DNA of 64,000 bases from Candidatus Zixiibacteriota bacterium. GTDB taxonomy: Bacteria > Zixibacteria > MSB-5A5 > GN15 > PGXB01. Below the pieces are notes generated by a model, which saw only the letters and a program-made list of their open reading frames with translations, was not told where the DNA came from and did not search any database. Of this stretch, positions 23,572 to 60,216 are shown in pieces (the stretch's first letter is position 1; the number at the start of each line of letters is the position of its first letter). Made by a program: the position numbers and the translations under genes. The stretch is from contig JAFGTT010000008.1 of assembly GCA_016933955.1 (NCBI GenBank), positions 1 to 64,000 on the forward strand, written 5' to 3'.

Positions 23572-23636
23572 TAAAGTTTGAATCTATCCGAACTTCCCGA
23601 TGCATTCACCGTGACACCGGTCTGCCATTATTTTCA

Positions 23637-38443: not shown

Positions 38444-40099
38444 TTAATTTTCAACGACAATGGGAAAGCGGAGAGTGATGGTGGTGCCTTTACCGACTAC
38501 CGAATCGATCTTGATCTCACCATTGTGGTTCTGGATAATTTTGGCGCAGGTCACCAGACCATAGCCATGACCGTTTTTCTTGGTGGTCAGGTGCGCCTTG
38601 AAAAGACGGTCTTTGACTTCGGGATTGACGCCGATACCATTATCGCTGACCGACAAATCCACGGAATTGTCGATTTTGACGGTTTTGACGGTTATCTGGC
38701 CCATCTCTCTTTTGGCCTCGTTGATAGCATCGGCGGCATTGTTGAGAAAATTCAAAAGGAGTTGGGCGATCTGGTCGGAATCGATAGCAAATTCCGGCAG
38801 AGCGGCATCGAAATCAGTGCTGATATTGATATGGCGGAATTTTTTCTGGGCCGATACGAACGAAAGGACATTACCGATTATGGAATTGAGGTTATCGGAA
38901 TCTTTAGCGGTATTCATCCGAGTATAATCCATCAAGCCGGCCGTAAAGCGTTCCATCTGGCTGACCGTCCCTTTAATTCTTTCGAGCGTGCTGTCGGCTT
39001 TTTCCCGATTATCCCGTTCCAGGGATAACTGGGTCATTTCCACACCACCGAGGATCAGGGCCAGAAAATTGTTGAGTTCGTGGGCAATCGATGAAGCCAT
39101 AACACCTTTTTCGGCGAATTTTTCCAGATCGAACAGGCGCAGTTCGTTTTCCTTCTGCAAGGTGACATCATCAAGGGTGATAATCAGGTCGGTCTCTTTT
39201 TCCAATCCGCCCGCGATGGTACTGATCCGGACATTGTAAATCCGTTCGATCTCGCCGCTTTTGGCTTTCAGGTTTTCAAAGATGCGGCCATGTTTTTTAA
39301 GACTGGTGGTTTTAAGCAACCTGGTCCAGTTGCGGAAAATGCCGTCGGGGAAAATCAGATCGATCGGGACATGATAGAGCGCATCGATATTCTGCAGATC
39401 GGGTTTGAAAGTTTTCAGGATCTTGAAACCGGTAGCATTGACTTTCTTGAGGGCATTGTGGCTGTCGAAGACGAAAACCCCCTGTTTGACATTATCGAGA
39501 ATATTGAGATACCATTCACTCAGATTGGCCATTTCCAGAAACAGGAAAGAATTGGCCACGAAGGGGGTGATGGTGTTGACGATGGTGGCCAGCAAATCCA
39601 CCTCGGCATCATCGAACGGTTTCCGGTTGACTTTCTCTCCCAGACCGACAATACCGATCAGGCGGTTGCCGTGTATCAGGGGGGCCACCAGGCGGACATC
39701 GCACTCATTCAGGATATAGGTCAGATTGGCCGAACGTCCCGGCAATTTGAGTTCCGCGATACGGTGCGGAAGGTTATTCTCGAAAAAATAATTATTATGT
39801 TCTTGGCTTAAAACAAGGGATGATAGCAGGTCATTTTTCTTGAAACGACCGGAAGCGAAGAAGAACTGATTTTTGAGATGTATCCCCGGCTGCTGGAAAA
39901 GAGCAAAGGCATTGGCCACCGAGAACTGCCCGCACATGGTCAGAAGCAGGACATCGATAATCCGTTCGAATTGCGGCTGGCTGGAAAACTGTTTGGCCAG
40001 TTTAGAGAGAGCATCCAGAGCCAGAACCTGTTTGTCCGAATCCTGCTGAACACTCAATGAGAGCTTACCGGTATCGAGAAGGTGATCGTGCTTATTCAT
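38444..40099 (-). CDS. GAF-domain sensor histidine kinase
   Basis: A 551-aa soluble kinase. A GAF domain occupies about 30-190 (FERIIDVLLLTMCGQFSVAN, VRLVAPLIHGNRLIGIVGLG), a PAS-like domain about 205-315 (WYLNILDNVKQGVFVFDS, IYNVRISTI), then HisKA with His340 in MASSIAHELNNFLALI and a HATPase domain (LLNFLNNAADAINEA, SVSDNGIGVNPEV, TTKKNGHGYGLVTCAKII). There is no transmembrane helix. It is the last gene of the partner-switching operon; the ATG at 40099 follows the STAS gene stop by one base. No response regulator is adjacent. Confidence 0.88.
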   Translation of the reverse strand: MNKHDHLLDTGKLSLSVQQDSDKQVLALDALSKLAKQFSSQPQFERIIDVLLLTMCGQFSVANAFALFQQPGIHLKNQFFFASGRFKKNDLLSSLVLSQEHNNYFFENNLPHRIAELKLPGRSANLTYILNECDVRLVAPLIHGNRLIGIVGLGEKVNRKPFDDAEVDLLATIVNTITPFVANSFLFLEMANLSEWYLNILDNVKQGVFVFDSHNALKKVNATGFKILKTFKPDLQNIDALYHVPIDLIFPDGIFRNWTRLLKTTSLKKHGRIFENLKAKSGEIERIYNVRISTIAGGLEKETDLIITLDDVTLQKENELRLFDLEKFAEKGVMASSIAHELNNFLALILGGVEMTQLSLERDNREKADSTLERIKGTVSQMERFTAGLMDYTRMNTAKDSDNLNSIIGNVLSFVSAQKKFRHINISTDFDAALPEFAIDSDQIAQLLLNFLNNAADAINEAKREMGQITVKTVKIDNSVDLSVSDNGIGVNPEVKDRLFKAHLTTKKNGHGYGLVTCAKIIQNHNGEIKIDSVVGKGTTITLRFPIVVEN

Positions 40100-40100
40100 T

Positions 40101-40463
40101 TTATCCCTGATGACCGACCTGGCAGGTTTTAAGTGCCTCATCCCGATCGGGCTTAATCGTCAGATAATCGAAAAGATCGAGAACACTGAAAACATGCAGG
40201 ATGGTTTCGGCGGCGTTACAGATAATGATATCGCCGTCGCTCTCCCGCATGGTCTCGACCGATCCGAGAATCGATCCGACCCCGGCCGAGGAGATAAATT
40301 CCAGCTGGTCCATATTAATGATAATATATTTGTATCCCCGGGACTGAGCCTCGCTGATAGCCATAGCCATCTCATGGGCATTGCTGTTGTCAAGCATTTT
40401 CCCCGGATTCAATTCGACGGTATCGCCGTTAACGCGAGTGGAGGCGATTTTCATTTCATCCAT
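40101..40463 (-). CDS. STAS-domain anti-sigma factor antagonist (RsbV/SpoIIAA-like)
   Basis: A 120-aa single STAS domain with the phospho-site region MDQLEFISSAGVGSILG. By family knowledge, a Ser/Thr kinase inactivates it by phosphorylation and a PP2C phosphatase reactivates it; both enzymes are encoded immediately upstream. GGAGGT precedes the ATG at 40463 well. Four bases separate it from the kinase gene. Confidence 0.93.
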   Translation of the reverse strand: MDEMKIASTRVNGDTVELNPGKMLDNSNAHEMAMAISEAQSRGYKYIIINMDQLEFISSAGVGSILGSVETMRESDGDIIICNAAETILHVFSVLDLFDYLTIKPDRDEALKTCQVGHQG

Positions 40464-40467
40464 GACT

Positions 40468-41232
40468 CTACCTCCATTTCTTTTCCAGGGTCAGGACATT
40501 GACCGTGTTATCACGGTGTTCATACTTCAGGTTGTCCATCATTCTGTTGATTAACATCAATCCGTAACCGCGTTTCTGCTGGCTTTTGATGGCGGTTTCG
40601 GGATGGAAATCCGGAAGATTCTTTTTCGGGTCGAATTTTATACCGGGATAGACGAATTCCATCCTGATCTTTTCGGAGGACGGGGTGGCGCTGAAGCGAA
40701 TGGCGTTTTCCTTTCCGATGTGGCTGTGCTGGCGGATGTTGCTGGCGACTTCGTAAAAAACAGTTTCCAGTTCGAAGATGAGAATTTCCGGCAGGTTGAT
40801 TTTTTTCAGGAAACCGCGGAATTCATGCCGACGCTTCACGATAGCTCCGTCATCGGGTTTGAATTCCAGAATTATACCGTGGTCGGCACCATCAAGGTTG
40901 ACCGCCACTTTCGGCGCCGGGGCGGTTTTCTCTCCGGTCCGGTCAATGACCATCAGCTCATAAAGATCGAGGACCTTCAGGATACGCTCCAGGTTAGACG
41001 AGACTTTCACCAGGAGGGTCTCGATGCGGGCCTCACGGAATCTGAGAATACTTCTCCAGAGGATATAAATATTGCTCGAAGTGGCATGATCGAGGCGGGA
41101 ACAGTCCAGGACAACCTCCCGGCCGCTTCCCTTAATATAATTATCGACTCGTTCATAGAAGCGCTCGACGGCTTTCCCGATTATTTCGGACGGGACAATC
41201 AGCGTATTTTCTTTAATAATTTCAACCGGCAT
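40468..41232 (-). CDS. STAS-HATPase fusion, RsbW/SpoIIAB-like anti-sigma kinase
   Basis: A 254-aa protein with an N-terminal STAS-like half (about 1-105: LIVPSEIIGKAVERFYERVD, VVLDCSRLDHATSSNIYILW, LKVLDLYELM) and a C-terminal GHKL ATPase of the RsbW type (about 145-254: ELETVFYEVASNIRQHSHIG, RMEFVYPGIKFDPK, KRGYGLMLINRMMDNLKY). The fused domains suggest a kinase carrying its own antagonist-like domain. I start it at the ATG at 41232; the in-frame ATG at 41280 lies deep in the preceding gene. It overlaps the phosphatase gene by 11 bp. Confidence 0.85.
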   Translation of the reverse strand: MPVEIIKENTLIVPSEIIGKAVERFYERVDNYIKGSGREVVLDCSRLDHATSSNIYILWRSILRFREARIETLLVKVSSNLERILKVLDLYELMVIDRTGEKTAPAPKVAVNLDGADHGIILEFKPDDGAIVKRRHEFRGFLKKINLPEILIFELETVFYEVASNIRQHSHIGKENAIRFSATPSSEKIRMEFVYPGIKFDPKKNLPDFHPETAIKSQQKRGYGLMLINRMMDNLKYEHRDNTVNVLTLEKKWR

Positions 41233-42820
41233 GTGAATATTCTCTATTTCTTTTATTGTTCTTATCGGCATCCATTCCATTCCATTTCATGACCATCAGG
41301 GTAATATCATCGAATTGATCGGCCGTCCCGACAAAGGCTTCGTGACGATTCATGGTTCGTTCGATCAGGTCGGCGGGATAGGCGGACATATTTTCCTTCA
41401 AAATTCCGGTAAAACGATCCATCCCGAACTCTTCGCCCCCCGGATTAACGGCTTCGTTGATACCATCGGTGTATTGCACCAGCCAGTCATCGTTCTGCAA
41501 CATTATCCGGCCTTTTTCGATTCTTTTATCGAAGGCTTCGGCCGGCATCATGCCCAGTGGAAAACCTTTGGTTTTGAGCTGTTCTATCTTGCCGGTGCGG
41601 CTATTCATTTTTATCAGGGGATTGTGGCCGGCGGAGGCGAAGGTGAATTCCCCGGTGGTTTTATTCAGCAGGCCGAAAAACATGGTAACGAACATGCCCT
41701 TCTTGATATTTTTAAGCAGTTCCCGGTTGACCCCGCTCAAGATCAGAGACGGTTCCATGATATTTCTCGTCAGCCGTTTGATGATATCGCGGGTGAGAAG
41801 CATCACCAGCATACCCGGCAGCGACTTCCCGGAAACGTCGGCGACCAGGAAGGCCATGTACATATCGTTGAAGTCGATAAAATCGTAATAATCGCCGCCG
41901 ACCTCGCGGGCGCTGCGGTAAGCCCCGGCGAATTCAAAAGCGGCGGCAGAGGGGTATCCGGTCGGGAGGATATTGGTCTGGATTTCGCGGGCGATCTCCA
42001 GTTCGCGGGCAATCCGTTCTTTCTCGATTATATCTTTTTGGGCGGCGTTCAGCCGGGTCCCCATTACCCGCAGCGTTTCCGATAGATATCCGAATTCGTT
42101 ACGGCTGTGATGGGGAATATCGATGATGATATTATCGAAATCGATCTTTTTCAGGCTGTCGGTGATCAGGCTGAGCGGTCGTAATTTGCGGTGCAGGATA
42201 ATCATGGTGACCGGGATCCCCAGAAGAATCATCACGATCGTAATCGATATTACCGTGACCAGGGAGCGGTTGCGGGCCTCGATAATCTGCCGGGCGGAGG
42301 CCGCCACCCCCAGATAGCCGACCAGGATATTATTTTCCATTACCGGGATGGCGATAAAAAGCGAGTCGCCGCGCCGATCGAAGGCCTCGCCTTCACGCGG
42401 GATATCCCGAAATCCTTCATTGGCTGGCGGAGTCATCCGGGCTCCCGAAATAACTTCTTTGATATTGGTATGGGCCAGAAAAACATAGTCTTTGTCGGTG
42501 ATTCCGACCCAGTGGATATCGGAATTATCGGCGGCGAGTTTGTTACAGATGTTGTTCAAGAGCAGGGCATCGGGACCGTTGGCGGCGATAATCAGTTTGC
42601 CGGTCGAGCCGGAATATGAACGAGCCTGGATTAACACTTTATCGATGGTGTTGCGGGTGACGGTTTTCACATAGCGGTCGGTGATGAAGTACCCCGTGGC
42701 CAGCATCAACACCAGGATGATACCCGACATATAAAGAGAGAACTCGAACCGGATGGAATTTTTAAACTGCCGGGCCTCGGGCCATCCCCGGGATATGGTA
42801 TCGGTCGCTTTATCGTCCAT
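41222..42820 (-). CDS. Membrane PP2C phosphatase of the RsbU/SpoIIE family
   Basis: A 532-aa protein: transmembrane helix at about 30-49, extracytoplasmic sensor (about 50-185), second helix (about 187-210), HAMP (about 211-265), a short coiled segment (EKERIARELEIAREIQTNIL) and a PP2C catalytic domain (about 290-525: AREVGGDYYDFIDF, FLVADVSGKSLPGMLVMLL, FGLLNKTTGEFTFASAGHNP, WLVQYTDGINEAVN). Metal-binding Asp residues in GGDYYD and VADVSGK are intact. It would dephosphorylate the STAS antagonist in response to an envelope signal. It overlaps the upstream PorV-like gene by 11 bp. Confidence 0.92.
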   Translation of the reverse strand: MDDKATDTISRGWPEARQFKNSIRFEFSLYMSGIILVLMLATGYFITDRYVKTVTRNTIDKVLIQARSYSGSTGKLIIAANGPDALLLNNICNKLAADNSDIHWVGITDKDYVFLAHTNIKEVISGARMTPPANEGFRDIPREGEAFDRRGDSLFIAIPVMENNILVGYLGVAASARQIIEARNRSLVTVISITIVMILLGIPVTMIILHRKLRPLSLITDSLKKIDFDNIIIDIPHHSRNEFGYLSETLRVMGTRLNAAQKDIIEKERIARELEIAREIQTNILPTGYPSAAAFEFAGAYRSAREVGGDYYDFIDFNDMYMAFLVADVSGKSLPGMLVMLLTRDIIKRLTRNIMEPSLILSGVNRELLKNIKKGMFVTMFFGLLNKTTGEFTFASAGHNPLIKMNSRTGKIEQLKTKGFPLGMMPAEAFDKRIEKGRIMLQNDDWLVQYTDGINEAVNPGGEEFGMDRFTGILKENMSAYPADLIERTMNRHEAFVGTADQFDDITLMVMKWNGMDADKNNKRNREYSHAG

Positions 42821-44822
42821 AGGATAATTCTTCCAGCTTTCTGATTTCGCTTTCGGAGCGTTTGATATAATCTTTTATTTCTTCGTTTTCGGGATCGATC
42901 AGAGCCGCTTTCTTCCAGATATCGATGGCTTCCTGCAGGCGGCTTTGACCGTACAATTCAACCCCGACAAATTTGTAAGCCTTAACCAGATAATCCCGGA
43001 CCGACTGATAGTCCGGCGCCAGTCGTTCGACCTCTTCCCATTTTTCGATGGCCTTTTCCAGATCACCCTGCTCGAACATTTTTCGAGCCGTACGATATGC
43101 GGATTCGACTTCCCTGAGCAGTTCCGTACTCAGGACCGGGGCTTCGCCCCGGCCGGCCGGAGGCGTTTGTCTGGCCGGTTGATTGAGTTCCCGGACCGCC
43201 CGGTCCCGCATCTCCAGGCACCAGCGATGTTCCGGGAAGAGAACCAGAGCGCTGTCGAGAGCGGCGATGGTTTCCCGGTGATCTCCTCTATCGAAGGCCG
43301 TTACGGCCTTTTCCCTGAAAATCTGGAAAGAGACTCGCCGCATGGCCTGATTTACCCTCGGATTATCGGGGGCATACTGCCTGAGGGTATTGATTTCAAC
43401 TGCGGCGCGGTCGAGCTGTCCGTAGCTGAGCAGTGAGTCGATAACCAAAAGCCGGCTGTCGATCATTTCTTTTTCCGAGGCGATCCGCTCAATGGCCCGG
43501 TCGGCTTCGCTGATCAGATTGCGGGCATCGGAGGAATTATCTATTTCGCCAAGGGCCAGTTGACCGAAATAGCGGGCGGCCAGATAATCACCGATATTCA
43601 TCTTGGCCTGGGCCGAATCCATATACTGGGAGTAGCGCATCTTAATGGTTACCTCCTGCAACCGATCATGAATTTCCTTTGCCATCCGGCGGATGGCAGT
43701 GGTGTCGATTCCAGCTGTCCGGGCCAGGAACAGGGCCCGGTCATAAAAATCGGCGGCCTCGACCAGACGGCCCTCATCATAGCTTTGTTTCCCTGACTGC
43801 TCCAGATCGGAAACTATCCGGTTGTTCCGGTCATTGAGATGAGTATTCATCATAGTATTGAAATCCGCCTCGCGGCGTTCAGCTCGTATTCTTTCCCGAT
43901 CACTGATGGTTTTGCCGATAGCCATCGAGATACTGAACATATGCAGATTGCCGAGATCGCGATCAACCAGGGCGTAATCGAAATCAAATCCTTTGTAACT
44001 CAGGCCGCCGCCCACCGAAAGTCTGCCATCGCGCACTCCGCCCCGGAGATGAACCAGGTCGTGAAGACTGTATTCCAATCCGGCGGCAAAACGGGCCGAT
44101 ACGGATTCCGCTTTGGTCAGCCGTCCTGAGAGAGTGGTTTTATGGTTTTCATTATTGAAGGGGACCGCACCCAGAGCGACCGCCAGATCAAAAGCGGTGG
44201 GGTAATTGATACTCTGCTCGGACAACTGCAGGCCGGGTTGGACTAGGTTCCGGAGATTTACGGCCAGGTTCAGTTCTCTCAGGCGTCCCGATCCGAGATT
44301 GAGCCGTCGACCTATGGAAAGATTCAATCCGGGTGACGAGGTGGCGCTGTACTCATCGAGGGACTGGTGCTCGAATGTCACCGCCGCGCCGATATCATAA
44401 CCGGCCAGATTACGGCCATAGGCCAGGTAATAAGCCATCCGGCTGTCATTGAATTCGCCCAGCAGGAGATTGTCGGCATCACGTTTTTCGATCCCATCGA
44501 TTCCCAGCCGAAACACTCCCAAACCGATCGTTCCCCAATCCAGAATCGGCAGAACCAGCCCGAAATACTGGTAAGCGGTCTGATCGTCGTACAGCCGGCT
44601 GTGGAATCCCGATAAAACCATCCGCTCGGTGCGAGCCATCCCGGCCGGATTCCAGAAGGGAGCGGTGGCCGAGGTGTTATCGGCCTGATTGGCCCCGCCC
44701 AGCGAGAGATCACCCGCCCCGGCGCCCATAACGAAAGGTGATTCGGTTCCGCCGTCGTCCGCGGCGAAGGCGGAAAGCGGCAACAGGAGGGCCGACAATA
44801 TGTATACCAGAATTCGTCTCAT
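42810..44822 (-). CDS. PorV/PorQ-like outer-membrane barrel fused to TPR repeats
   Basis: A 670-aa exported protein. Residues 1-20 are a signal peptide (ILVYILSALLLPLSAFA). Residues about 25-310 carry the PorV/UPF0164 pattern: GAGAGDLSLGGANQA, ATAPFWNPAGMA, then regularly spaced amphipathic strands. The C-terminal half (about 330-670) is helical with TPR units (EGRLVEAADFYDRALFLAR, EQGDLEKAIEKWEEVERLAP, RLQEAIDIWKKAALIDPENE). PorV-type barrels shuttle sorting-domain proteins to the surface in type IX-like secretion; the giant protein immediately upstream has such a domain and overlaps this start by 4 bp (ATGA). Confidence 0.82.
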   Translation of the reverse strand: MRRILVYILSALLLPLSAFAADDGGTESPFVMGAGAGDLSLGGANQADNTSATAPFWNPAGMARTERMVLSGFHSRLYDDQTAYQYFGLVLPILDWGTIGLGVFRLGIDGIEKRDADNLLLGEFNDSRMAYYLAYGRNLAGYDIGAAVTFEHQSLDEYSATSSPGLNLSIGRRLNLGSGRLRELNLAVNLRNLVQPGLQLSEQSINYPTAFDLAVALGAVPFNNENHKTTLSGRLTKAESVSARFAAGLEYSLHDLVHLRGGVRDGRLSVGGGLSYKGFDFDYALVDRDLGNLHMFSISMAIGKTISDRERIRAERREADFNTMMNTHLNDRNNRIVSDLEQSGKQSYDEGRLVEAADFYDRALFLARTAGIDTTAIRRMAKEIHDRLQEVTIKMRYSQYMDSAQAKMNIGDYLAARYFGQLALGEIDNSSDARNLISEADRAIERIASEKEMIDSRLLVIDSLLSYGQLDRAAVEINTLRQYAPDNPRVNQAMRRVSFQIFREKAVTAFDRGDHRETIAALDSALVLFPEHRWCLEMRDRAVRELNQPARQTPPAGRGEAPVLSTELLREVESAYRTARKMFEQGDLEKAIEKWEEVERLAPDYQSVRDYLVKAYKFVGVELYGQSRLQEAIDIWKKAALIDPENEEIKDYIKRSESEIRKLEELSYGR

Positions 44823-47800
44823 CGTATCACCGCGATTTTTCTTCGATATTCCTCGGTTCCGCCCGAGACATACCGGGCTGTTATCCGGCAAAAATAGGTC
44901 CCCGGAAGGACATCGAAATTGCCATCGTTGCGGCCCATCCAGATATCTTCGCGATGCGGACCCGCGGCCCGGAAGGCATTATCAGCGACCCGTTTGATCA
45001 TTTCCCCGGTAATGGTGAAAATTTCGATATCGACCTGAGCCGCCTCGGGCAGATTGTAACCGATAACGGTCGGCTCGTGGGCTGGATTGAACGGATTGGT
45101 GAAATTACTGAAAGACGAGCCCAGATTTTCCGCGGCCAGGGAAATCTCCGAAGCGTACAGTGGATATGATCCATTATCCAGTATTATGTAGCATGGCGTT
45201 TCCAGATTATGATCAGCAATAGCCATGAAGGATGAATCACCGAATCTAAAAGTGTAATTTCCCGGCGCGGCGGCGCTGTCGATCTCACAGCGCAATTCCA
45301 TCTCCAGGTTGCTTCCGATCCGGATAATCAATTCCTCATCAAGCACCAGCGACAGGCTGTCCCCGACAATCTGGCTGTCGACCGCCACGACATTATCGTT
45401 AATAATCAGGGAAACCGATCGGAATACATCGGATTCAGGGGATACATAACCGGAGGCAGTACGCTGAAGAAATTTTCCGCTGACCGATGACAGGGCCAGA
45501 TCTCCCAGAGGTGAGGGATTATCATAACGAAGATGACCGGATAACACCACGGCATCAGCCTGTCCCGGATAAGCCAGCAGGGTCGGTTGCCGTCTCAGTT
45601 GCAGGGCGGGCCGTCCGGCCGGAAGGAAAATACTCGAGACACCGGTCTGGAAAGGCATCTCGAAGGCGCAACCCGCCTCTATCTGAGGGGTATGGGCGGT
45701 ATCATTGGCATCCCGGATATTAATGGCCTGGAATGAGGGGATTTCCAAAACGAAATTGTCATAAAGAGCATCACTCTCGATATCGGCGACCAGTTCCAGA
45801 GTAAGAGTGTCACCGGGAGTGACCATGATGGCGCTGTCATCGAGATCAAAAACCGTATAGCCGCTCTGAAGCCGGATAAATGACTGATAATATATATTAC
45901 CGCCCGATATACGGTACCCGATCCGATCAAACAGGTGATCGGGGTCGAGGGGAATACCGAGGGTATCCAGTACCGTCAGCCGGATATCCTGGATATCCAG
46001 CGAGGCGAATCCGGAGTCGGCCGGGTATTCGATAAAAATATCAAACAAAGGCAGGGCATCGACACCGCCGACGACCGATTCCGGCAGGCGGGAAACCAGG
46101 CACAACTCGGGAGGAATGGCCGGATATTCAAATCCGGCGAAACTGGAATTGATCGGAAAGATCGATTCCGAGGCCAGGGTATAATTGGTATCGGTAACAG
46201 CCTGGAGAAGCGACCCGGAACTGAGATCGCGAATCACAAAGGCGGTACTGTCGGCGATGTGCAGGGCAAATCCCGAATAGGCGGGCATATTCCCGATCAT
46301 TACCTGGATTTTCAAAGAGTCAATTTCCCCGGGACTCAGAGTGATAGGGGAATTGAGCTGGATATCAAGCGATCCGGCGCCGATTTCGAAATCGTAGACC
46401 GAAGCGATGACTGTCGACTGGCGCACCAGGCGGACTTCATCTAACAACTGAGGAATAACCAGGGTATCGCCGAAATTATCGACGAACGCCATCGAGAGAC
46501 CGGTCAATTGAATCTGGGAACTGCCCGATTCTCCGGGATGGAACAGACGCAACCGGAGGACATCGACATTATACTGGCCGAAATTGACAGCCGGCGGCAG
46601 GAGCGATTCATACGAAAGGGCCATGGTCTGCGAGGGATCATCGATCCGGCAGGAAGCGGTCCGCATCGGAAAAGGAGTGGCCGGACTGATGGTGACCGGC
46701 TGATCGGCATTTTGATCGACGATGACAATGGCTTGTTCATCGGTAATTGCCAGAGCGAAATTATCGGCCAGAGCCAGGCTGTCAATGTCCACCAGCAGGG
46801 TGAACTGGTACTGCTGACCGGAGGTTATTATAATCGGTTCGGAAAAATCCATTAATATTTCGGGCTGGTCCGGGATATTGTCGATGATGCATAGATTGGT
46901 GTAGCCGGTGGCCAGGACCATCCGGGAAAGAGCCTCGGAGGCATTCATCGGCTGGCCGGAACCATTCTCGATCACGATCCGCAGACTGTCAAGTCTCAGT
47001 GAAGCCAGCGAGGAGGAAGTATCGGGTTGGAGAATTCTCACGCTGAACGGGAAAACATTGGTCTGTCCCCGGGTGACGGAGGTCGGGATAGTATTAATCA
47101 TTTGCACGACAACGCTGTCCGGAGCGATCTGTATGGTTATCGGTTCGGTTTCAACCAGGGCCGAGGTATCATTGATATCATTGGCCACCGCCCGCATTCT
47201 CCACAGGACCATTCCGGCCGAATCGGCCGTGAAATGGAAGGTGAAGGTTGTGGTTTCGTCGACGGCCAGGTTTACCGGCCCGGCCTCGGTCGAATCCAAG
47301 GTTACCAGCGAGGAATCGGAGATATAGGTGATTTCGCCGGTGATATTATCGATGGGATTCAGGCTGATATTGGTCACATTCATCCTGACGGCGATTTCCT
47401 GGCCGACGGAATAGGTTTCATTCAAAGGTTGTACTGCCAACGCCAGACCGGAGGTTGAGACAGTGAAAATTTCCGCGGCAACCAGCACCCGGTCGAGCGG
47501 ACCATCATTGAGAGAACTGTAATGGCAGCCGTTCAGCGGCAATTTGGCGCGGAAGGCGGTTCCCGGGGTGGCACTCAGGGAAACATCTCCGAGGACGAAT
47601 AGAATCGGAGCCGGATCGATAATTTCCAGGTTCAGCCCATCGGTCTGCCACAGACTGTCAACATAATTGAAAACGGCCAAAAGGGAATCGGTTTCCTGCC
47701 AGGTACTGTCATGATTGAGATCTATCCAGAGTTCCAGCGGCTCAATATCGGAGCTGTCGGCATCGAAAAGATTGTCAATGACAATGGTTTCGAGAGTGTC

Positions 47801-50800
47801 CGGTTGGTCGCCGTTCAGGGCCGGAATGAAGGCAAACAGGGTGACCGAGGTATCGCCGGGAGCCAGGGTCCGTGATTCCAGCGGCAGAGTCTTGTACTGC
47901 TGATAAACCGAACCATCGACCACCAGGTAACCGCCATTGGTCAGGGGCAGATTGCCGTTGACATTAACCGGTTCGAGGAAACTGAAATCGGTCGGGGCAT
48001 TGATGGAGACAGCCAGGCTGTCGGAATCGATTATGTCCGGAGGCACATCAATGACGACAAAAAAGTATGAAAGCGATTCGGCCGGGAGAGCGACATTCAA
48101 CCCGGTCAGGCTGAGTTTGCCGTCGGAGAAATAGCCGGTGGCAATCAGGGAATCGCGCTGGTAGGTCCGGTTTCGATCGGCATCATAGTACAACGCCACC
48201 TGGCCCAGCTCATGATCGGCAAAGTCCAGATCCGAGCGGCTGTGCGAAATATTGGTGAAAGTTATACTCCGAAGAGTCTGATCCCGGTCAAGATATCCAT
48301 TGTAAAGGGCAAAACTCAGGGCCATGTTGTTTTTCGAACCGGGATATATGATTGTGCTGGAGGCCGGGATGGCGATGGCCGTGACCCGGTTGGAGGGGAT
48401 AATCAGATGCGAGGCGGAACTCACCGCCGCCTTATCGTCAGGACCGATCAGATCGGATTTATACCGGGCGCCCGCCACCGGGATGCCGAACCGCAGAGTC
48501 CCGCCGTTAAATTGGGTATTGGCGATATCGATAGTGACATAAAAGGCGGCCCCGGTTGAAGGAACCGGGTAATTCAGATTGGTGATTTCCCAGTAGCTGT
48601 TGAAAAAACCGAATTGACCGAGTGAGGCATCACCGACCGAAATTCCGTCCTGGCCATCATCGGCCCAGAGCTTGACCGTAATCGGGGCATCATTAAGGCC
48701 CTGCCCGTCGGCATTAATCAGTTGCAGGGTCGACAGAATATCGTCGGCATAACCATTCCCCGGAAGGGTGAAACTGAAAACCATCTGGTTGACCTGTCCC
48801 CCGACAAGGGTTTTGCCGGGTATGGCGTCGATAACGATTCGTTCCGCCTGATAAGCATTTATGGTAAAGGACTCGGTGTTCCGAAGCGGGAAGGAACCTT
48901 CAATAACAGTTGTTTCGCTGAAATAGATATCCGATGAATCGGCCGGGCCGATATTAAGAGTATTGCCGTTTTTGCCATTCTCCGCATCAAGGGCCAGAGT
49001 TACAGCCAGGTCGATCGTCCCGCCGTTGGAGGACAGCACCAGATTGCCGGTGGTCAACATACAGGTCCCGTCAACCAGAACAGCCGTGGCCAGCAGGGAA
49101 TCGGTATCGCCGATATTTTCAATATCATCATCCCGATCAAGATAAATCAGAACACTGTCGATCTGGCTGTCGAGCAGGGCTTGTTCGACTTCTTCAATAT
49201 CTTCGGCGTACAGGGTCAGCCGAAGGCTGTCGATTGTCCTTTGATTGTTATAGCCGTTGATTATCTGCAGGCCCAGAATCGGAGGTGTTTCATATCCGGG
49301 AATCACTTCATCAGATTTAATATCATATGTCTTGATGGCTACCGCTTCCGAAGTCTGGATGGTGATGGTGTCCAGGGGGGTGGTGGCGCTGTCGATCGGG
49401 CCATCATTATTGGAGCTGACGTTAAGGCCATTTTGAGGGATATTGAAAGATATCGTGGCGCCGTTATCGGGGTAGTCGGCCAGAAAGGCCCCAACATAAA
49501 AGCGTTGCAGGGGATGAGTCATGGCGGCTTTAAAGCCGCTGACCACCCAGCGATTGCCGGTAAAGACCAGGCGGCCGAGCCGGATTTCGGCACCCGAACC
49601 ATTCCAGATATTATTGGCATTGTCCTGGTACAGCACCAGCGAATCGAAATCGGATTCGGCGGCTGTTTCGGTATTGACAATACTGAACAGATTCAAAGTA
49701 TCTTTATCATAGCCGTTGCAGGGAATATCTACTGCAAAAACATTATAAGCCGAAGCAATGGGGCTGATTTCCGTCAGCCCGGTGCTGATTTGAACCAGTT
49801 GCTCGGCCACGAGACCGTCGATGACGGCAACTCCGAGCGAATTAACCGTGGCCGGACCGGTCACCGGAGTTCCATCGAAGGTTTCGATATCGGCGGCCGG
49901 GTGAATGAGGACATCGAGAGTATCACCATCGCACGGATACAGATCAATATTCGCACCGACCAGAAAGGTCCGGCCCTCATCGGGCGGGATGACGACCGAA
50001 GCGAATTCGAAACTGGTGGTGGTTGAAACGCTGTAATCTTCGATGGCGATCAGGCTATCGACATCGGTCAACAGCGAATCATTATCAATATCCAGATAAA
50101 GACCGGCCGAATCGACATTGGTGATAAGCTGGGGCTGGTTGCCCGAACCGCGGGAATTATCATTCAGTGTCAGCCCGGTAATACCTTTATTATTATCATA
50201 ATAATTTTCAATACGGAAGGCCAGGATGGCGTTTTGGGGTTGTCCGGGATGGACCGTTTTATTGCCGATGGCAATCCCGGTTAAGTACAATTCCTCGACA
50301 TCGATAAAACCGGTGGTATCGGCCAGATTATTAAAACTGCTGACGGCGGTAACTTTAGCCTTTCCCGGGGCCGTCGCGATAAACCTGCCGGTACTGTCAA
50401 TATCTCCGATTCGCCCGAGGGCTTTCCAGGTGATATCTCCCGGCGCCGTGATATTCATTTCGGAGTCATATCCGGTGACGGAAAAGCTGATGGTATCGCC
50501 AATATTAATATCAGCCGAATCGGGCGAGATGACAATCTGGTTCAATTCACCGGAAACGACGGTGATCTGACCGGAAGTGTCGGTCAGGCCGTATCCGGTG
50601 GCGACAATATATCCGGTTCCCGAAGTGGCGGGGCTGAAAAGACCGCCGCTATCAATAGTCCCGATTCCGCCGAGAACCGACCAGTCGGCCATGACACCGG
50701 GATCGCTCTCATTACCATCGGCATCGAGAAATATATGGCTGAAAAGGATAGTACTGTCCGCCGAAACGGTGACGGTATCGGGCGAGATAATCAATTGCGC

Positions 50801-53800
50801 CGGAACACCGGCCAGGCAGGTAATTATCCCGGTGGTATCGGCCGCGCTGTCGGAATAGACCGCCCGTATCCGTCCTGTCCCGGGCCCGGTCAAAGTCAGG
50901 TCGGTCGAGGAATTCGGACCAACCGATACGGTCCCGATTGAATCAACACCGAGAATTGTCCAGGTGGCGGAAACATCGCCGACTAAACCGCCCCCGGCCG
51001 AATATCCCCGGCAGTACAACATGGTGCTGTCGTCATCGGTGCATAAAGTAGTATCATCGAAAGGCGTCCCATCGAACCATTCAATCCGGATTGATTCGGC
51101 TTCCGATTCCCGGGCACCCATTTCCGGAGCGGTGCCGAAATACGGAAAACCGAGATCCAGCCCGGCATTGAGCGCCGGCGAACCGTACTGGAGATAGAAA
51201 TTCGCGGCGGCGGTATCGATAAATTGCGGATCGGCCGAAATACCTCCAGCCGAATCGGACACCCCGCCCAGATAATTACCATCGCTGTTATTCCAGACAT
51301 CATTAAAACCACAGATGTTGCCGGACGCTCCGCGAATACCCTCGAGATTGCCGATAAAAATATTATTAAAGACACGGGCCGTCCCGATCGTATTGGTGAT
51401 TTGAATACCGCTTGAGGCACAGTCGTAGGCGGTATTATTGTAATATTTATTATTGTCGCCATTGTAATTAAAAAAACCCCGCTGGCCGCAGGTATGAGAA
51501 ATATTACGGATAATCAGATTGTCGTCGCCATCCACCCTTATTCCCGACCAACCGATGTTATACATATAGCAGTCGCTCACCCGGCAGGAATCGCCGGTCA
51601 CATAAATGCCCTGACATCCGGCGTCGATAACCTGTACCGAACGCAGTTCGACATGATTAGCGGTCACGCTTATTCCCGCCCAGGATGCTCCGCCGTTATT
51701 GATAACGACATCGCCGTCGCCATACTTGGTATAGACAACCGGTTCCGACTCGGTTCCCCAAGTGGCCAGGTACAGGGTGCTGTCGGTCTCATAGAGGCCC
51801 GGCAGAATCCGGATAATATCGCCGGGACCGAGAAGCCCTTTTAAATCGCCGTTATCGATCGAAAGCCAAGCCGATGATGGTGTCAGGCCATCGTGGTCGT
51901 CATCACCGGCGGTGGAAACATAGTAGATACTGGAACCGGGGCCGCTGGTATCGGCGACATTGATGACAACCTTTTCGCTGTCAACCGCCAGGGAATCATC
52001 GGCGGCATAGAAAGTTACATAATATACACCCGATTGAACGAAACCGGGCGTCCAGTCGAAAGTCCCGGTCCCGTCACCGTGATCGGCCAGTGAGGCCCCG
52101 CCGGGCAGGGCGGAGGCGCTCAGGGCCGGGATCGATTCGATATCGGCGGCGGCTATATCAAAATTAAGATTGACGTTTTCTGTGGTCGCCTTGCCGCCGA
52201 TCGGAGTTAGAACCGGTAACCGGTTGCCGGCTTCGGCCACTGTAATTGTCACCGTTTCGCTGTCAGCCTCAAGAAAATCATCGGTGGCATAAAAGGTGAT
52301 ATCGTAAAGACCCGACTGAAGGTAAGTGGGAGTCCAGTCAAAAGTCCCGGTACCGTCCCCATGATCGATAAAAGAGGCCCCGTCCGGCAACACGGTTGTG
52401 GTCAGAACCGGAATAGAGGCATCGTCAAAGGCGGCAACCTCGAAATTAAGATTGATATTTTCGGTCACACTCCTGGAGCCGATCAGGCTTAAAACCGGGG
52501 CAGTGTTGGACATCTCAACCGCGCCCATATCGGGTGCCGAACCATAGTACGGATACCCCAGATCAAGAGCGGTATTCAAGCAGGGCGACAAAGCCTGCAG
52601 GCTGTAATCATCCGTGGCGGCATCGACAAAAAGCGGATTGGCCGAGATACCGCCGGCCGAATCACTTATGCCGCTGTAATCGTTACTGCTGTTTCCCCAG
52701 ACATCATTGAAGCCGCAAATATTTCCGGCATTGCCTTTCAGGCCGGTTATATTATTGGCCAGAATACAGTTAAAAACACGGGCGGTGGATTCTTTTAAAT
52801 CCATTCCATCAGCCGCACTGCCATAGATGGTGTTATGGTAATGAAGACCATAATCGCCGGAGCCCTCGTTTCTGATGCCATCATCATCGGTCCGGGCGAT
52901 GATATTGCGCATGGTCAGCGCATAAGTTCCCTCCACCCGGATGCCGTATTTGCCGATATCATGAATGAAACACCCGGCCACGGTACAGTGATCGCCCGTG
53001 ATATGCACGGCATTGTCTTCGGTGTTGGTCAGTTCTGCACCATGCAGAGCAGTATAATCCCCTTCAAGAACGAAGATAATCTTGCTTGCACCGCCGGCAT
53101 CGAAAACGGCCGGAGATTCGCCGTAGGCGGCGTAAAGGATCGGGTCATCGGAAGTCCCCGAAGTTTGTAATTCGATTTCCGCAGTCAGCGAATATAAACC
53201 GGGTAGAATATTGATCGTGTCCCCCGGCTGAATCAGGCCTTTGGTGTCGCCGTTATCGACCGAGGCCCAGGCCGAAGTGGAATCAAGGCCGTCGTTATCG
53301 TCATCGCCGGTCGGTGAGACCCAGTATACACTGCCGCCGGTCTGAATAAATTCGAGTGCTCCCAGATCCGGTTTGGAACCGATATATAGATACCCGAGAT
53401 CAAGCCCGGTATCGATAGCCGGAGAGCCGGCCTGCAATGAGAAATCGCCTCCGGCCGGATTAGTCAAAAGCGGATTGGCCGAGATACCGCCCGCGGAATC
53501 GGCGACACCGTTGATATAATTGGACGTGCTGTTGTTCCAGACATCATTGAAACCGCAGATACTGCCGGAATGGCCGTTGATACCATACATGTTATTGATT
53601 ATGATATTGTTGAACAGGCGTTCGGTGATCGCTGAATTATTGAGCATGACGCCGTTCTGGCCGCAATTGGAAATGGTGTTGTTATGGATTAGATTGTACT
53701 GCGCGACATCGAGGACATGAATGCCATCTATTGAAATTTGGTAAATCGTATTCCTCAGGAGCAGATTGCTGTCCCCTTCAAGAAAAACGGCGTGCATTCC

Positions 53801-54235
53801 TAAATCATGCAGATAGCAATCCAAAATAAGGCAGTTGTTTCCTTTCAGATGGATACCATATATCTGGGAATTGGCGATTTCGAGATCATGCAATTCGACA
53901 TAATCGCCTTCTGCCAAAGCGATCACATTACTCTGGTTCCCGGCCGTAATGAGAACTGCTCCTCCGTAAGCTCGATAAACAATCGGAGCGGAGGCATTGC
54001 CATCGGTTTTAAATTGAATCTGGGATATGACCGAATATGTTCCCGGCAGGATATTGATCGTATCGCCGGCCGCGATAAAACCTTTCTGCTCACCATTATC
54101 GATGTCGGCCCAGGCTGAACCGACACTGAGGCCATCACTATTATTATTGCCGGTAGGCGAAACATAATAGACCTCAGCCTGGGAGACTGTCAGGGCTCCG
54201 AGCGCAAATACAATGATGAATAATATGGCTCGCAT
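44819..54235 (-). CDS. Giant modular surface protein with beta-helix, Ig-like and C-terminal sorting domains
   Basis: A 3138-aa protein with a signal peptide (1-20). Three parallel beta-helix/DUF1565-type modules begin at about residues 21, 302 and 768, each opening with YYVSPTGNNNSDGL-like and GDTINILPGLY motifs, containing NDVWNNS and ADSAGGISANPLF, and closing with a GSAPDMGA-type phrase. Two He_PIG-type Ig domains (about 577-765) share GDGTGTFDWTP. Big-type Ig domains cover about 1048-1350 (ITWKALGRIGDIDSTG). A long array of related beta-sandwich repeats (about 1350-3030) follows, with recurring LYLDIDNDS- or LYYDADRNR-type phrases. The C-terminus (about 3043-3138) is a FlgD-like sorting domain (FTNPFNPAHEPTVIGYNLP, GTYFCRITARYVS). 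Probably exported and anchored on the surface by the PorV-like partner encoded next. Confidence 0.88.
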   Translation of the reverse strand: MRAILFIIVFALGALTVSQAEVYYVSPTGNNNSDGLSVGSAWADIDNGEQKGFIAAGDTINILPGTYSVISQIQFKTDGNASAPIVYRAYGGAVLITAGNQSNVIALAEGDYVELHDLEIANSQIYGIHLKGNNCLILDCYLHDLGMHAVFLEGDSNLLLRNTIYQISIDGIHVLDVAQYNLIHNNTISNCGQNGVMLNNSAITERLFNNIIINNMYGINGHSGSICGFNDVWNNSTSNYINGVADSAGGISANPLLTNPAGGDFSLQAGSPAIDTGLDLGYLYIGSKPDLGALEFIQTGGSVYWVSPTGDDDNDGLDSTSAWASVDNGDTKGLIQPGDTINILPGLYSLTAEIELQTSGTSDDPILYAAYGESPAVFDAGGASKIIFVLEGDYTALHGAELTNTEDNAVHITGDHCTVAGCFIHDIGKYGIRVEGTYALTMRNIIARTDDDGIRNEGSGDYGLHYHNTIYGSAADGMDLKESTARVFNCILANNITGLKGNAGNICGFNDVWGNSSNDYSGISDSAGGISANPLFVDAATDDYSLQALSPCLNTALDLGYPYYGSAPDMGAVEMSNTAPVLSLIGSRSVTENINLNFEVAAFDDASIPVLTTTVLPDGASFIDHGDGTGTFDWTPTYLQSGLYDITFYATDDFLEADSETVTITVAEAGNRLPVLTPIGGKATTENVNLNFDIAAADIESIPALSASALPGGASLADHGDGTGTFDWTPGFVQSGVYYVTFYAADDSLAVDSEKVVINVADTSGPGSSIYYVSTAGDDDHDGLTPSSAWLSIDNGDLKGLLGPGDIIRILPGLYETDSTLYLATWGTESEPVVYTKYGDGDVVINNGGASWAGISVTANHVELRSVQVIDAGCQGIYVTGDSCRVSDCYMYNIGWSGIRVDGDDNLIIRNISHTCGQRGFFNYNGDNNKYYNNTAYDCASSGIQITNTIGTARVFNNIFIGNLEGIRGASGNICGFNDVWNNSDGNYLGGVSDSAGGISADPQFIDTAAANFYLQYGSPALNAGLDLGFPYFGTAPEMGARESEAESIRIEWFDGTPFDDTTLCTDDDSTMLYCRGYSAGGGLVGDVSATWTILGVDSIGTVSVGPNSSTDLTLTGPGTGRIRAVYSDSAADTTGIITCLAGVPAQLIISPDTVTVSADSTILFSHIFLDADGNESDPGVMADWSVLGGIGTIDSGGLFSPATSGTGYIVATGYGLTDTSGQITVVSGELNQIVISPDSADINIGDTISFSVTGYDSEMNITAPGDITWKALGRIGDIDSTGRFIATAPGKAKVTAVSSFNNLADTTGFIDVEELYLTGIAIGNKTVHPGQPQNAILAFRIENYYDNNKGITGLTLNDNSRGSGNQPQLITNVDSAGLYLDIDNDSLLTDVDSLIAIEDYSVSTTTSFEFASVVIPPDEGRTFLVGANIDLYPCDGDTLDVLIHPAADIETFDGTPVTGPATVNSLGVAVIDGLVAEQLVQISTGLTEISPIASAYNVFAVDIPCNGYDKDTLNLFSIVNTETAAESDFDSLVLYQDNANNIWNGSGAEIRLGRLVFTGNRWVVSGFKAAMTHPLQRFYVGAFLADYPDNGATISFNIPQNGLNVSSNNDGPIDSATTPLDTITIQTSEAVAIKTYDIKSDEVIPGYETPPILGLQIINGYNNQRTIDSLRLTLYAEDIEEVEQALLDSQIDSVLIYLDRDDDIENIGDTDSLLATAVLVDGTCMLTTGNLVLSSNGGTIDLAVTLALDAENGKNGNTLNIGPADSSDIYFSETTVIEGSFPLRNTESFTINAYQAERIVIDAIPGKTLVGGQVNQMVFSFTLPGNGYADDILSTLQLINADGQGLNDAPITVKLWADDGQDGISVGDASLGQFGFFNSYWEITNLNYPVPSTGAAFYVTIDIANTQFNGGTLRFGIPVAGARYKSDLIGPDDKAAVSSASHLIIPSNRVTAIAIPASSTIIYPGSKNNMALSFALYNGYLDRDQTLRSITFTNISHSRSDLDFADHELGQVALYYDADRNRTYQRDSLIATGYFSDGKLSLTGLNVALPAESLSYFFVVIDVPPDIIDSDSLAVSINAPTDFSFLEPVNVNGNLPLTNGGYLVVDGSVYQQYKTLPLESRTLAPGDTSVTLFAFIPALNGDQPDTLETIVIDNLFDADSSDIEPLELWIDLNHDSTWQETDSLLAVFNYVDSLWQTDGLNLEIIDPAPILFVLGDVSLSATPGTAFRAKLPLNGCHYSSLNDGPLDRVLVAAEIFTVSTSGLALAVQPLNETYSVGQEIAVRMNVTNISLNPIDNITGEITYISDSSLVTLDSTEAGPVNLAVDETTTFTFHFTADSAGMVLWRMRAVANDINDTSALVETEPITIQIAPDSVVVQMINTIPTSVTRGQTNVFPFSVRILQPDTSSSLASLRLDSLRIVIENGSGQPMNASEALSRMVLATGYTNLCIIDNIPDQPEILMDFSEPIIITSGQQYQFTLLVDIDSLALADNFALAITDEQAIVIVDQNADQPVTISPATPFPMRTASCRIDDPSQTMALSYESLLPPAVNFGQYNVDVLRLRLFHPGESGSSQIQLTGLSMAFVDNFGDTLVIPQLLDEVRLVRQSTVIASVYDFEIGAGSLDIQLNSPITLSPGEIDSLKIQVMIGNMPAYSGFALHIADSTAFVIRDLSSGSLLQAVTDTNYTLASESIFPINSSFAGFEYPAIPPELCLVSRLPESVVGGVDALPLFDIFIEYPADSGFASLDIQDIRLTVLDTLGIPLDPDHLFDRIGYRISGGNIYYQSFIRLQSGYTVFDLDDSAIMVTPGDTLTLELVADIESDALYDNFVLEIPSFQAINIRDANDTAHTPQIEAGCAFEMPFQTGVSSIFLPAGRPALQLRRQPTLLAYPGQADAVVLSGHLRYDNPSPLGDLALSSVSGKFLQRTASGYVSPESDVFRSVSLIINDNVVAVDSQIVGDSLSLVLDEELIIRIGSNLEMELRCEIDSAAAPGNYTFRFGDSSFMAIADHNLETPCYIILDNGSYPLYASEISLAAENLGSSFSNFTNPFNPAHEPTVIGYNLPEAAQVDIEIFTITGEMIKRVADNAFRAAGPHREDIWMGRNDGNFDVLPGTYFCRITARYVSGGTEEYRRKIAVIR

Positions 54236-54690
54236 AAAATATTTTTATTCAAATGGTTATTATGGTTTATTTCGGCTTTTTCAGGAGAAAACTTGACCTG
54301 GCCTTCGGACATGAAATGGTATCAGAAATTCCCTGTTTCGGCGTATTTTGGACAAAACACCCTGCCGGACAATAAATAGCTATTGCAACAGAGGGATGGG
54401 ACGCGGCGATCAATGGACTTATATGAAAATCAACGGATTACAAAGTCGTCCTGATAATTTAATGGCGGCTGTCTCGGTCTCTGATTTTTTGGCTCAAGCT
54501 GTATCCCGATTCGGTCGATTGAGATTAATAAGTCGTCGTCATGACGGCCAGGGGGTGAAAGCGGCGGACAAGGAGGTCGGCCGCTCACTCGCTTTTCTCT
54601 TAATTATCTATTTTAATGGTGGAATAATGTTCAGGAATCAGGCGAAATAAATGGCCTTGGGGAGGCAATGAAATCATTGACGGCGGCCAG
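54236..54690. other. Intergenic region upstream of the giant-protein operon
   Basis: About 450 bases with no convincing gene. It must contain the promoter of the giant-protein operon (minus strand); I see no unmistakable hexamers. Confidence 0.4.
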
Positions 54691-54730
54691 GAAAACAGCC
54701 CGGTTTATCGGATACAGGCAAAACCGGGCC
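54691..54730 (-). terminator. Rho-independent terminator of the phosphorelay operon
   Basis: On the minus strand, CCCGGTTT and AAACCGGG pair around a 14-base loop and are followed by CTGTTTTCC, about 10 bp beyond the stop of the receiver-CBS gene. Confidence 0.6.
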
Positions 54731-54738
54731 GGGTAATT

Positions 54739-55620
54739 TTAGACGGAACCAAGGCAATCGGCCACCTCGAGGATGATATCCCGTCCCCGGAGAACACCGA
54801 CCAGTTCATTATCCCGCATCACGGCGATATTGATCAGGTGGTGCTCATCCATCAGATGAATGGCCTCCATCAGCGACGCATCGACCGCCACCATGGCCTG
54901 GTCATCGACCAGATCCCCGATAAACCTCTGGCCGATGACCTTGCACTGCGCCAGAAACATCCCGGTGAAGAAGGAAGCGTATGGTGAATGGCTGATTGAG
55001 GGCGGGATAAGCAGTTTGAGAAGATCGTTGAACCGGATAATCCCGCGGAATTCTCCTTTGCGGCTGAAGACCAGAGCCGAACGGACCTGACCGGAGCGAA
55101 CGCCCTCGGGAACTGGCCGATAAAAAGCTTTCCGCAGTTCCTCGAGAACCGAGGTCATTGGTTCATCATCATAGACTCGCGGGTAAAAGGCGGGCGGCAC
55201 CATCAATTCGAAGATGGTTCTTTCGCGCAGGGTTTTATTTCGTCCCCGGTCGAGCATGACGCGGATTTTATCGCCGAGCTGTTCCATATCGACCGGTTTC
55301 TGGAGAAAATCGACAATCTCCAGCTTGATTCCGGCCATAGCCGAATCGAAATCGCCATGCCCGGTCAGAATCAGAACCGGCAGGTTTTCCTCGAACTCGC
55401 GCAGTTTCTGCAAGGTTTCGATCCCGCTCATCCCGGGCATCTTGAGATCCAGAACGACAATATCGGGCCGGGCCTGTTTGACCCGTCCCAGAGCCTCCTG
55501 GCCGTCAGCCGCCTCGGTCACAATGAAACCGCGTCGTCCCAGAGTCCGCGCCGCGGCCTGACGGAAATCGTCCTCATCATCGACAAAAAGCAGCTTAATT
55601 TGGGGTTTTTTATTTTCCAT
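54739..55620 (-). CDS. Response regulator with receiver domain fused to a CBS pair
   Basis: A 293-aa protein: receiver domain (about 6-125) with phospho-acceptor Asp58 in IVVLDLKMPGMSG and conserved Lys in FLQKPVD; then two CBS motifs (about 140-290: MTSVLEELRKAFYRPVPEG, SALVFSRKGEFRGIIRFNDL, DASLMEAIHLMDEHHLINIA, NELVGVLRGRDIILEV). There is no DNA-binding or enzymatic output, so phosphorylation probably changes ligand (adenine-nucleotide) or partner binding by the CBS pair. The ATG at 55620 is preferred, 6 bases after GGAG. It lies last in a three-gene operon with a double-receiver protein and a Cache kinase. Confidence 0.88.
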   Translation of the reverse strand: MENKKPQIKLLFVDDEDDFRQAAARTLGRRGFIVTEAADGQEALGRVKQARPDIVVLDLKMPGMSGIETLQKLREFEENLPVLILTGHGDFDSAMAGIKLEIVDFLQKPVDMEQLGDKIRVMLDRGRNKTLRERTIFELMVPPAFYPRVYDDEPMTSVLEELRKAFYRPVPEGVRSGQVRSALVFSRKGEFRGIIRFNDLLKLLIPPSISHSPYASFFTGMFLAQCKVIGQRFIGDLVDDQAMVAVDASLMEAIHLMDEHHLINIAVMRDNELVGVLRGRDIILEVADCLGSV

Positions 55621-55665
55621 ATTCATCTCCTTTGGCCGCCGTCTCGCGGTGCAGCCGGTCGTGAC

Positions 55666-56523: not shown

Positions 56524-56530
56524 TTGAGCC

Positions 56531-59004: not shown

Positions 59005-59589
59005 GTGGACAAAAACGATAGTAATTATCTTTCATCGCTGGTAGGCCGGTGTCTGGCCGATGACAGGAATGCCTGGACCGAACTGGTGGAGCGCATCACC
59101 CCGCTGGTTTTTTCAATATGCCGCAGGATGAAATTATCGCGCGAGGACAGTTTTGATATTTATGGTCAGGTGTCGTTTTTACTCTGGAAAAATCTGGATA
59201 GATTACAGACGCCGGCCAAATTGCTGTCTTACGTAACAACCATAACCCGTCGGGTTGTCTATGCTCATCAAAAGAAATCCAGGATACTGGAGCGGGTGGA
59301 AGAGGCCATCAAGTTGGAAACCGGCGATTTGTCGGCGGAAACACCCGAGGAAGTTTACGCCGTGCGGGAGAGAAGCGAGATATTATTAAAAGCCCTGGCC
59401 CGTCTTCCCAGACGAGATTATCAGCTAATTCGGGCGTTGTTTTTTAACCGGAGCAATCCCACCTATGAGGAAATTGCCCGGCAACTGGGCATACCAGTCT
59501 CGTCGATCGGGCCATCGCGCGAGCGTTGCTTTAAAAAACTGTATCGCCTGCTGAAGAAAAACGAGCGATTTTTTAGGTATTTTTTATGA
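59005..59589 (+). CDS. ECF-family sigma factor of the second CHAT module
   Basis: A 194-aa sigma factor, paralogue of the one at 6938: region 2 (FSICRRMKLSREDSFDIYGQ, YVTTITRRVVYAHQKK) and region 4 (YEEIARQLGIPVSSIGPSRE). The SSIGP turn in region 4 is shared by both copies. The start must be the GTG at 59005, because an in-frame TAA lies four codons upstream; this also confirms the GTG choice for the first copy. It is the first gene of the module; 37 bp separate it from the adaptor gene. Its target promoters are unknown, probably including its own operon. Confidence 0.88.
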   Translation: MDKNDSNYLSSLVGRCLADDRNAWTELVERITPLVFSICRRMKLSREDSFDIYGQVSFLLWKNLDRLQTPAKLLSYVTTITRRVVYAHQKKSRILERVEEAIKLETGDLSAETPEEVYAVRERSEILLKALARLPRRDYQLIRALFFNRSNPTYEEIARQLGIPVSSIGPSRERCFKKLYRLLKKNERFFRYFL

Positions 59590-59626
59590 AAATTTGTCTC
59601 TCTATCATGTATGGAGGAGGGTAGGA

Positions 59627-60214: not shown

Positions 60215-60216
60215 TT

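Follow-up and report, generated by a model that had tools for sequence, protein, structure and literature searches.

On the minus strand of the 64,000-nucleotide stretch of DNA analyzed here (the window; contig C8, genome size 3.38 Mb), a run of six genes, overlapping or almost abutting, spans positions 54235 to 38444 (Table 1). Read 5′ to 3′, the order is GIANT, BAR, PP2C, STK, STAS, and GAF-HK. An earlier note on this DNA had described such a run of genes with their domains, and the open reading frames, Pfam, and NCBIfam agree with it. Promoter and terminator scanning of the operon revealed no convincing consensus site in the space at its head. The start of BAR is ATG 44822 rather than TTG 44891, and the resulting ATGA motif gives a 4-base overlap with GIANT. 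Elsewhere, 23 of the 27 giant/barrel pairs read overlap in the same way; the remaining four comprise three with an over-long TTG start like that of the window and one with a split giant. Judged by its fit to the ortholog profile, the STK start is probably the internal one, which leaves an 11-base overlap. A dCache histidine kinase, a double receiver, and a receiver-CBS protein are encoded 503 bases upstream of GIANT (54739 to 58219, minus strand); these genes were not seen as conserved neighbors at other loci and were excluded as module members.

Table 1. Genes and intergenic space of the minus-strand operon in the window
Feature	Coordinates	Strand	Description
GIANT	44819..54235	-	3138-aa secreted surface protein, signal peptide
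BAR	42810..44822	-	PorV-like outer-membrane barrel with periplasmic TPR superhelix
PP2C	41222..42820	-	Membrane SpoIIE/PP2C phosphatase
STK	40468..41280	-	STAS domain fused to RsbW/SpoIIAB-like HATPase; likely start 41232
STAS antagonist	40101..40463	-	120 aa
GAF-HK	38444..40141	-	GAF-PAS-HisKA-HATPase histidine kinase
Intergenic space	54236..54738	-	Operon head; sole sizeable gap; presumed promoter region

The first gene product would form a surface fiber. Its head, about residues 1 to 1100, is a right-handed beta-helix (Pfam Beta_helix, 1.6e-23) that varies among orthologs, whereas the shaft and tail are conserved. The shaft (about residues 1320 to 3045) is built of three repeats of ~315 residues and four of ~160 residues. 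The last ~95 residues (44819 to 45106) form a C-terminal domain (CTD) resembling those of the type IX secretion system (T9SS); the match is weak and covers, over the last ~90 residues, only the tails of the T9SS models NF052323 (2e-6) and NF033707 (6e-5) of NCBIfam. The FlgD_ig match in the corresponding protein of a paralogous cassette, described below, is likewise weak. SprA_N (PF14349), which marks the T9SS translocon SprA, is present in the window's own genome (G000:C15:44620-45924) and in 36 of 40 genomes searched, that genome included, compared with 0 of 14 controls.

BAR consists of a barrel (residues ~68 to 302) followed by a TPR superhelix (residues ~306 to 669; 43907 to 42813). It matches the NCBIfam PorV_fam model at an E value of 4e-19 and 69 bits, under the cut-off of 90. 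The AlphaFold model (pLDDT 85, pTM 0.49) shows a barrel and then a long helical superhelix, and its top two Foldseek matches are PorV chains of T9SS translocon structures (8gl6_F, 8.8e-11; 6h3i_F, 2.2e-8). On the predicted model, BAR is a PorV-like barrel of the FadL type, and it is probably the outer-membrane carrier of GIANT. The CTD of GIANT, the PorV-like fold of BAR, and the genomic copy of SprA suggest export of the giant through SprA, after which it would be held by its own PorV-like barrel, the product of the overlapping next gene. The type IX shuttles PorV and PorP/SprF, which have dedicated cargo (PMC12618676), resemble this pairing of a CTD-bearing giant with its own shuttle-like barrel. 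The likeness extends to the best fold match of BAR, the translocon PorV, and to SprA in the genome; the differences are that BAR carries a TPR arm of ~360 residues and that the operon runs on into a partner switch.

The phosphatase PP2C is laid out as a transmembrane segment, a periplasmic Cache-like sensor, a second transmembrane segment, a HAMP/coil region, and a SpoIIE/PP2C domain (Pfam SpoIIE, 2e-40). The predicted model agrees: a long helix leads into a Cache-like region in the periplasm, followed by another membrane helix and the PP2C domain. Among solved structures, RssB and SiaA-PP2C (6k4e) are nearest to it in fold. Positions G309, D310, D328, D452, D504, and D505 were invariant in all 29 aligned orthologs, and the metal-binding residues expected of a partner-switching phosphatase are intact. 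Mean pairwise identity across 28 window-type sequences (the diverged copy L066 excluded) was 0.50 for the sensor versus 0.57 for the catalytic domain. The sensor is thus almost as conserved as the catalytic domain, as expected for a domain with a protein partner, although it could bind a small ligand instead. In the paralogous type, the corresponding values were 0.30 and 0.44 (17 sequences).

The kinase and the antagonist belong to the families of a classical partner switch. STK comprises STAS and HATPase_c_2 domains (Pfam), and its profile matches SpoIIAB and RsbW (SpoIIAB 1til at 1.3e-7). Ser68 of its STAS domain is kept in 31 of 32 aligned orthologs (alignment A2, from which L048, L050, and L066 were left out). 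The N and G2 boxes are kept, with Glu177, Asn181, G213, G238, and G240 present. The G1-box Asp, found in 30 of the 32 aligned sequences (window included), is replaced by Tyr211 in the window and in its sister locus L038, and the window's STK consequently lacks the full set of N, G1, and G2 boxes of a GHKL kinase. Because this Asp is absent, the kinase step in these two genomes may be weak or may be performed by another protein. The separate STAS protein matches Pfam STAS (4e-15) and SpoIIAA 1th8 (9e-11); its Ser59 aligns with the phosphorylated Ser of SpoIIAA and is kept in all 29 readable rows. The earlier note had called the circuit complete, which holds for the phosphatase, kinase, and STAS families but not for the Asp of the kinase G1 box. 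Compared with RsbU-RsbV-RsbW and SpoIIE-SpoIIAA-SpoIIAB, the same three families are present with most catalytic and phospho-acceptor residues kept; the differences are that no sigma target was found here, that the kinase is fused to a STAS domain and has lost the G1 Asp, and that the switch is locked to a surface cassette.

The last gene had been described in the earlier note as a GAF kinase. A GAF domain and a kinase are indeed encoded, but the kinase is a histidine kinase of the HisKA type (Pfam HATPase_c, 7e-23; HisKA, 2.7e-6) and not the serine kinase of the switch. The operon contains no cognate receiver for it and ends in this histidine kinase, with no diguanylate cyclase; a GGDEF protein is encoded at the paralogous locus.

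To determine how widely this arrangement occurs, we searched 98 relatives for STK and afterwards ran an STK profile against 132 genomes from the phylum Zixibacteria. STK was detected in 34 of the 132 genomes (E ≤ 1e-20), spanning six family codes, and in 19 of 78 high-quality genomes. Relatives bearing the operon and recorded as Candidatus Zixiibacteriota (L067 and L068) were among the matches listed. We then read 34 other loci (30 plus L177, L178, L187, and L069; in L061, the STAS gene was located by tblastn). All six genes were present in the same order and on one strand at 22 of these 34 loci, some of the end genes being cut by contig ends. At a further 11 loci, contig ends or 100-N scaffold gaps cut off at least one gene. 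The one remaining locus, L066 (G044:C1:3467500-3487499), is a strongly diverged second copy in its genome; it lacks the GAF kinase, in whose stead the other strand carries a kinase-like gene. Apparent losses in G004 (L037) and G076 (L053, L178) were not counted, as the breaks fall on 100-N scaffold gaps, and the apparent lack of STK in G001 reflects a contig end. The locus labeled Calditrichota (L069) was rejected as an extra-phylum case: its barrel match, coordinates, and score are the same as those of G070 of Zixibacteria. In a tree of PP2C, family labels clustered beyond shuffled labels (8 changes versus 12.5); most inner branches are weak, so that the tree does not distinguish losses after vertical inheritance from a degree of transfer.

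When the phylum was searched for the barrel, most Zixibacteria genomes proved to encode another, more diverged one as well. At 17 such loci, the order is a CTD-bearing surface protein, a barrel-TPR protein (~609 aa), a HATPase-TM-PP2C protein, STAS (16 of 17 loci), and, in the place of the histidine kinase, a GAF-GGDEF protein (16 of 17 loci). The phosphatase of this paralogous cassette combines an RsbW-like HATPase, a membrane sensor, and PP2C in one chain; the fusions are thus rearranged, the HATPase being joined to PP2C here and to STAS in the window type. The paralogous locus in the window's own genome (L176) yielded Pfam matches to SpoIIE (1e-41), HATPase_c_2 (4e-23), STAS (4e-16), and GGDEF (2e-44), and a polysaccharide export protein is also encoded there. 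The cassette was found in 90 of 132 Zixibacteria genomes (93 at E ≤ 1e-80 minus three in which the window-type barrel was the only listed match). Among the best 30 loci of the 132 genomes searched, the barrel-TPR gene is immediately preceded by the CTD protein gene in all 30 and immediately followed by HATPase/PP2C in 29; the remaining locus has a broken barrel frame, after which HATPase/PP2C comes.

The same string was found in metagenome-assembled genomes (MAGs) assigned to KSB1, Calditrichia, and, by label, Spirochaetes. In the phylum of the KSB1 MAG, a near-full-length barrel was detected in 48 of 59 genomes. Among the best 30 loci of those 59 genomes, both neighbors are present at 29, and the 30th begins at a contig edge inside the barrel. 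A long barrel was detected in 2 of 60 genomes from the phylum of the Spirochaetes-labeled MAG, both times with both neighbors. The cassette was absent from a sample of 148 Bacteroidota, in which a single match at E ≤ 1e-60 covered the barrel only. As a small control, four PorV-like barrels without TPRs were inspected: none has a CTD protein upstream, and one has a PP2C-like gene downstream. At L230, a single frame joining barrel and HATPase-PP2C was rejected as evidence of fusion, ~40 residues being missing at the junction, where the contig starts. Alignment A4 was made without L194 (19 of 20 rows). At L188, a ParA-like gene of 247 aa (3898 to 4641, minus strand) lies between the HATPase-PP2C gene and STAS; genes of the same length occur in L179, L181, and L182, the identity having been read in L188 only. 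In a deltaproteobacterial MAG (L138), a gene for a TPR lipoprotein-like product (2654 to 6016, plus strand), whose tail resembles the TPR end of the barrel protein, overlaps a PP2C gene by 4 bases and is followed by STAS and RsbW-like genes; this locus is a barrel-less version of the same logic.

The order is therefore not unique to the window, a point on which the earlier note had staked its proposal that the genes are made together. That proposal gained support: order and overlaps are kept across Zixibacteria, and the paralogous cassette occurs in another phylum. A chance or purely local arrangement is ruled out by the 34 other loci; because the order recurs across families and, in its paralogous form, across phyla, it lies far beyond chance. 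As judged by gene order, the string of surface protein, PorV-TPR barrel, and partner switch exists in two diverged versions and has been conserved across at least two phyla, and co-function of the surface genes with the switch is well supported.

The position directly after STAS is occupied by a GAF protein with a variable output half. At 4 of 28 loci, the kinase half of GAF-HK is swapped for another kinase with a receiver, the GAF-PAS half still being recognizable. Where separately alignable, the replacement halves are 46 to 57% identical to each other, and they share ~26% identity with the usual kinase (two loci giving separate alignments). At L212, a multi-GAF protein follows STAS directly. 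The GAF domains of window-type and paralogous outputs align with an hhalign probability of 63% (E = 7e-5), a score that any two GAF domains might reach. We expected the GAF half to be the better-conserved half; this expectation failed, the mean being 0.37 for the GAF half versus 0.48 for the kinase half. The gene after STAS is, from its position, the best candidate for the target of the switch, and since its product is a GAF output protein that can be swapped, the switch probably targets something other than a sigma factor.

A conventional RsbUVW switch whose sigma-factor target lies elsewhere in the genome would fit the profile matches of STK to SpoIIAB and RsbW and of STAS to SpoIIAA, and ECF-like sigma genes do lie in the window. 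However, no SigB, SigF, or SigG model exceeded its cut-off in any of 20 genomes, and no sigma gene was found among the six operon proteins or the ten scanned proteins of the paralogous locus. The ECF genes of the window belong to separate CHAT cassettes, and we regard such a switch as highly improbable. The earlier statement that no sigma factor is encoded here stands for the six genes but not for the window, which contains an ECF-like sigma gene at 59005 to 59589 (plus strand), outside the operon; the suggestion that the target may not be transcription is indirectly strengthened by the missing SigB/F/G models and by the GAF output protein.

Two paralogous cassettes elsewhere in the window (6851 to 12404 and 59005 to 62979, both plus strand) each encode an ECF-like sigma factor, a ~200-aa protein with no Pfam match, and a 920-aa TPR-CHAT protein. 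The two TPR-CHAT proteins are 51% identical over 920 aa, and the first cassette is followed by a subtilase with dockerin. The window seems to contain two copies of a sigma-CHAT-protease system. A region of low G+C content (18921 to 24995, minus strand; 0.38 to 0.44 versus about 0.52) encodes an S8 peptidase, a PD40 propeller protein, and a PMT-like glycosyltransferase, and was possibly acquired.

We consider it about an even bet (probability roughly 0.5) that the module couples a T9SS-delivered surface fiber to a partner switch acting on the neighboring GAF-domain enzyme rather than on a sigma factor. The TPR arm of BAR would reach into the periplasm and contact the periplasmic sensor of PP2C, and this contact would be set by the giant being loaded, extended, or under load. 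From the families present, the phosphatase would dephosphorylate the STAS proteins at Ser, with the RsbW-like kinase working against it. Position and output swapping suggest that unphosphorylated STAS would bind the last protein at its GAF-PAS part and alter the output, which is a histidine kinase here, whereas the paralogous cassette has a GAF-GGDEF diguanylate cyclase beside polysaccharide-export genes. Activation of the latter may be likened to that of SiaD by SiaC, whose binding is a precedent for a nontranscriptional partner-switch output (PMC8457831). SiaABCD of Pseudomonas aeruginosa shares with the present module a membrane PP2C with a periplasmic sensor, a kinase, an antagonist, and a neighboring output enzyme bound by the antagonist (SiaC-SiaD). 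The likeness lies in the fold match of the window's PP2C to SiaA (6k4e) and in the GGDEF protein of the paralogous cassette; the differences are that the window-type output is a histidine kinase and that the kinase here is fused to STAS. SiaABCD is not known to include a surface protein or outer-membrane barrel.

The arrangement suggests that the cell's own surface structure is used as a sensor or is controlled through the circuit. It is plausible that information on surface assembly or contact flows to the switch and that the switch does not govern them; we infer the direction of coupling and every contact. In the reverse direction, the Cache-like domain of PP2C would sense an external ligand and the switch would govern the making, loading, or release of the fiber, which would then be an output and not a sensor. 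The predicted Cache/PAS-like fold of the PP2C sensor favors this, since such folds often bind small molecules, as do the polysaccharide-export genes that follow in the paralogous locus, where surface outputs cluster with the switch. The window-type sensor is, however, unusually conserved for a ligand sensor, and the cytoplasmic STAS and kinase have no obvious route to the periplasm within the operon except through the phosphatase. Control from the inside out thus appears rather unlikely to us. Less likely again is co-expression alone, in which a shared promoter would serve the surface proteins and a stand-alone circuit for an attached lifestyle, with no direct contact between them. Bacterial operons often group the functions needed under one condition, and gene order cannot tell co-regulation from contact. 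Nonetheless, the neighbors are kept in two diverged cassettes and at least two phyla despite rearranged domain fusions, and all four TPR-less PorV-like barrels lack the full association.

The families are known, but the combination was not found in print: in the open-license literature we found no description of a surface cassette combined with a partner switch, nor of PorV together with an anti-sigma factor antagonist. Surface-structure sensing by type IX-like secretors is little known, PorA-PorXY-SigP of Porphyromonas gingivalis being the one link found in the literature. There too, according to PMC7712824, which treats the interaction of the PorA CTD with PorV, a CTD-bearing surface protein feeds an intracellular regulator; that regulator differs in being a two-component system with an ECF sigma factor, without STAS or PP2C. 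No PorX/PorY pair with an ECF sigma factor is encoded within the present operon.

The coupling of fiber to switch would make this module a candidate sensor defined by gene order, with a predicted contact between TPR arm and phosphatase sensor and a predicted output through STAS and a GAF enzyme. More tentatively, and at somewhat less than even odds, the two cassettes may represent a multiphylum family working from the outside in, in which a type IX-delivered fiber and its PorV-TPR anchor together form the receptor that feeds a partner switch, and in which the GAF-domain output is exchangeable: a histidine kinase, a hybrid kinase-receiver, or a diguanylate cyclase with polysaccharide export. 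If so, the cell would gauge whether its own fiber is built, loaded, or pulled, and partner switching would act as an envelope sensor whose output is exchangeable between phosphorelay and c-di-GMP.
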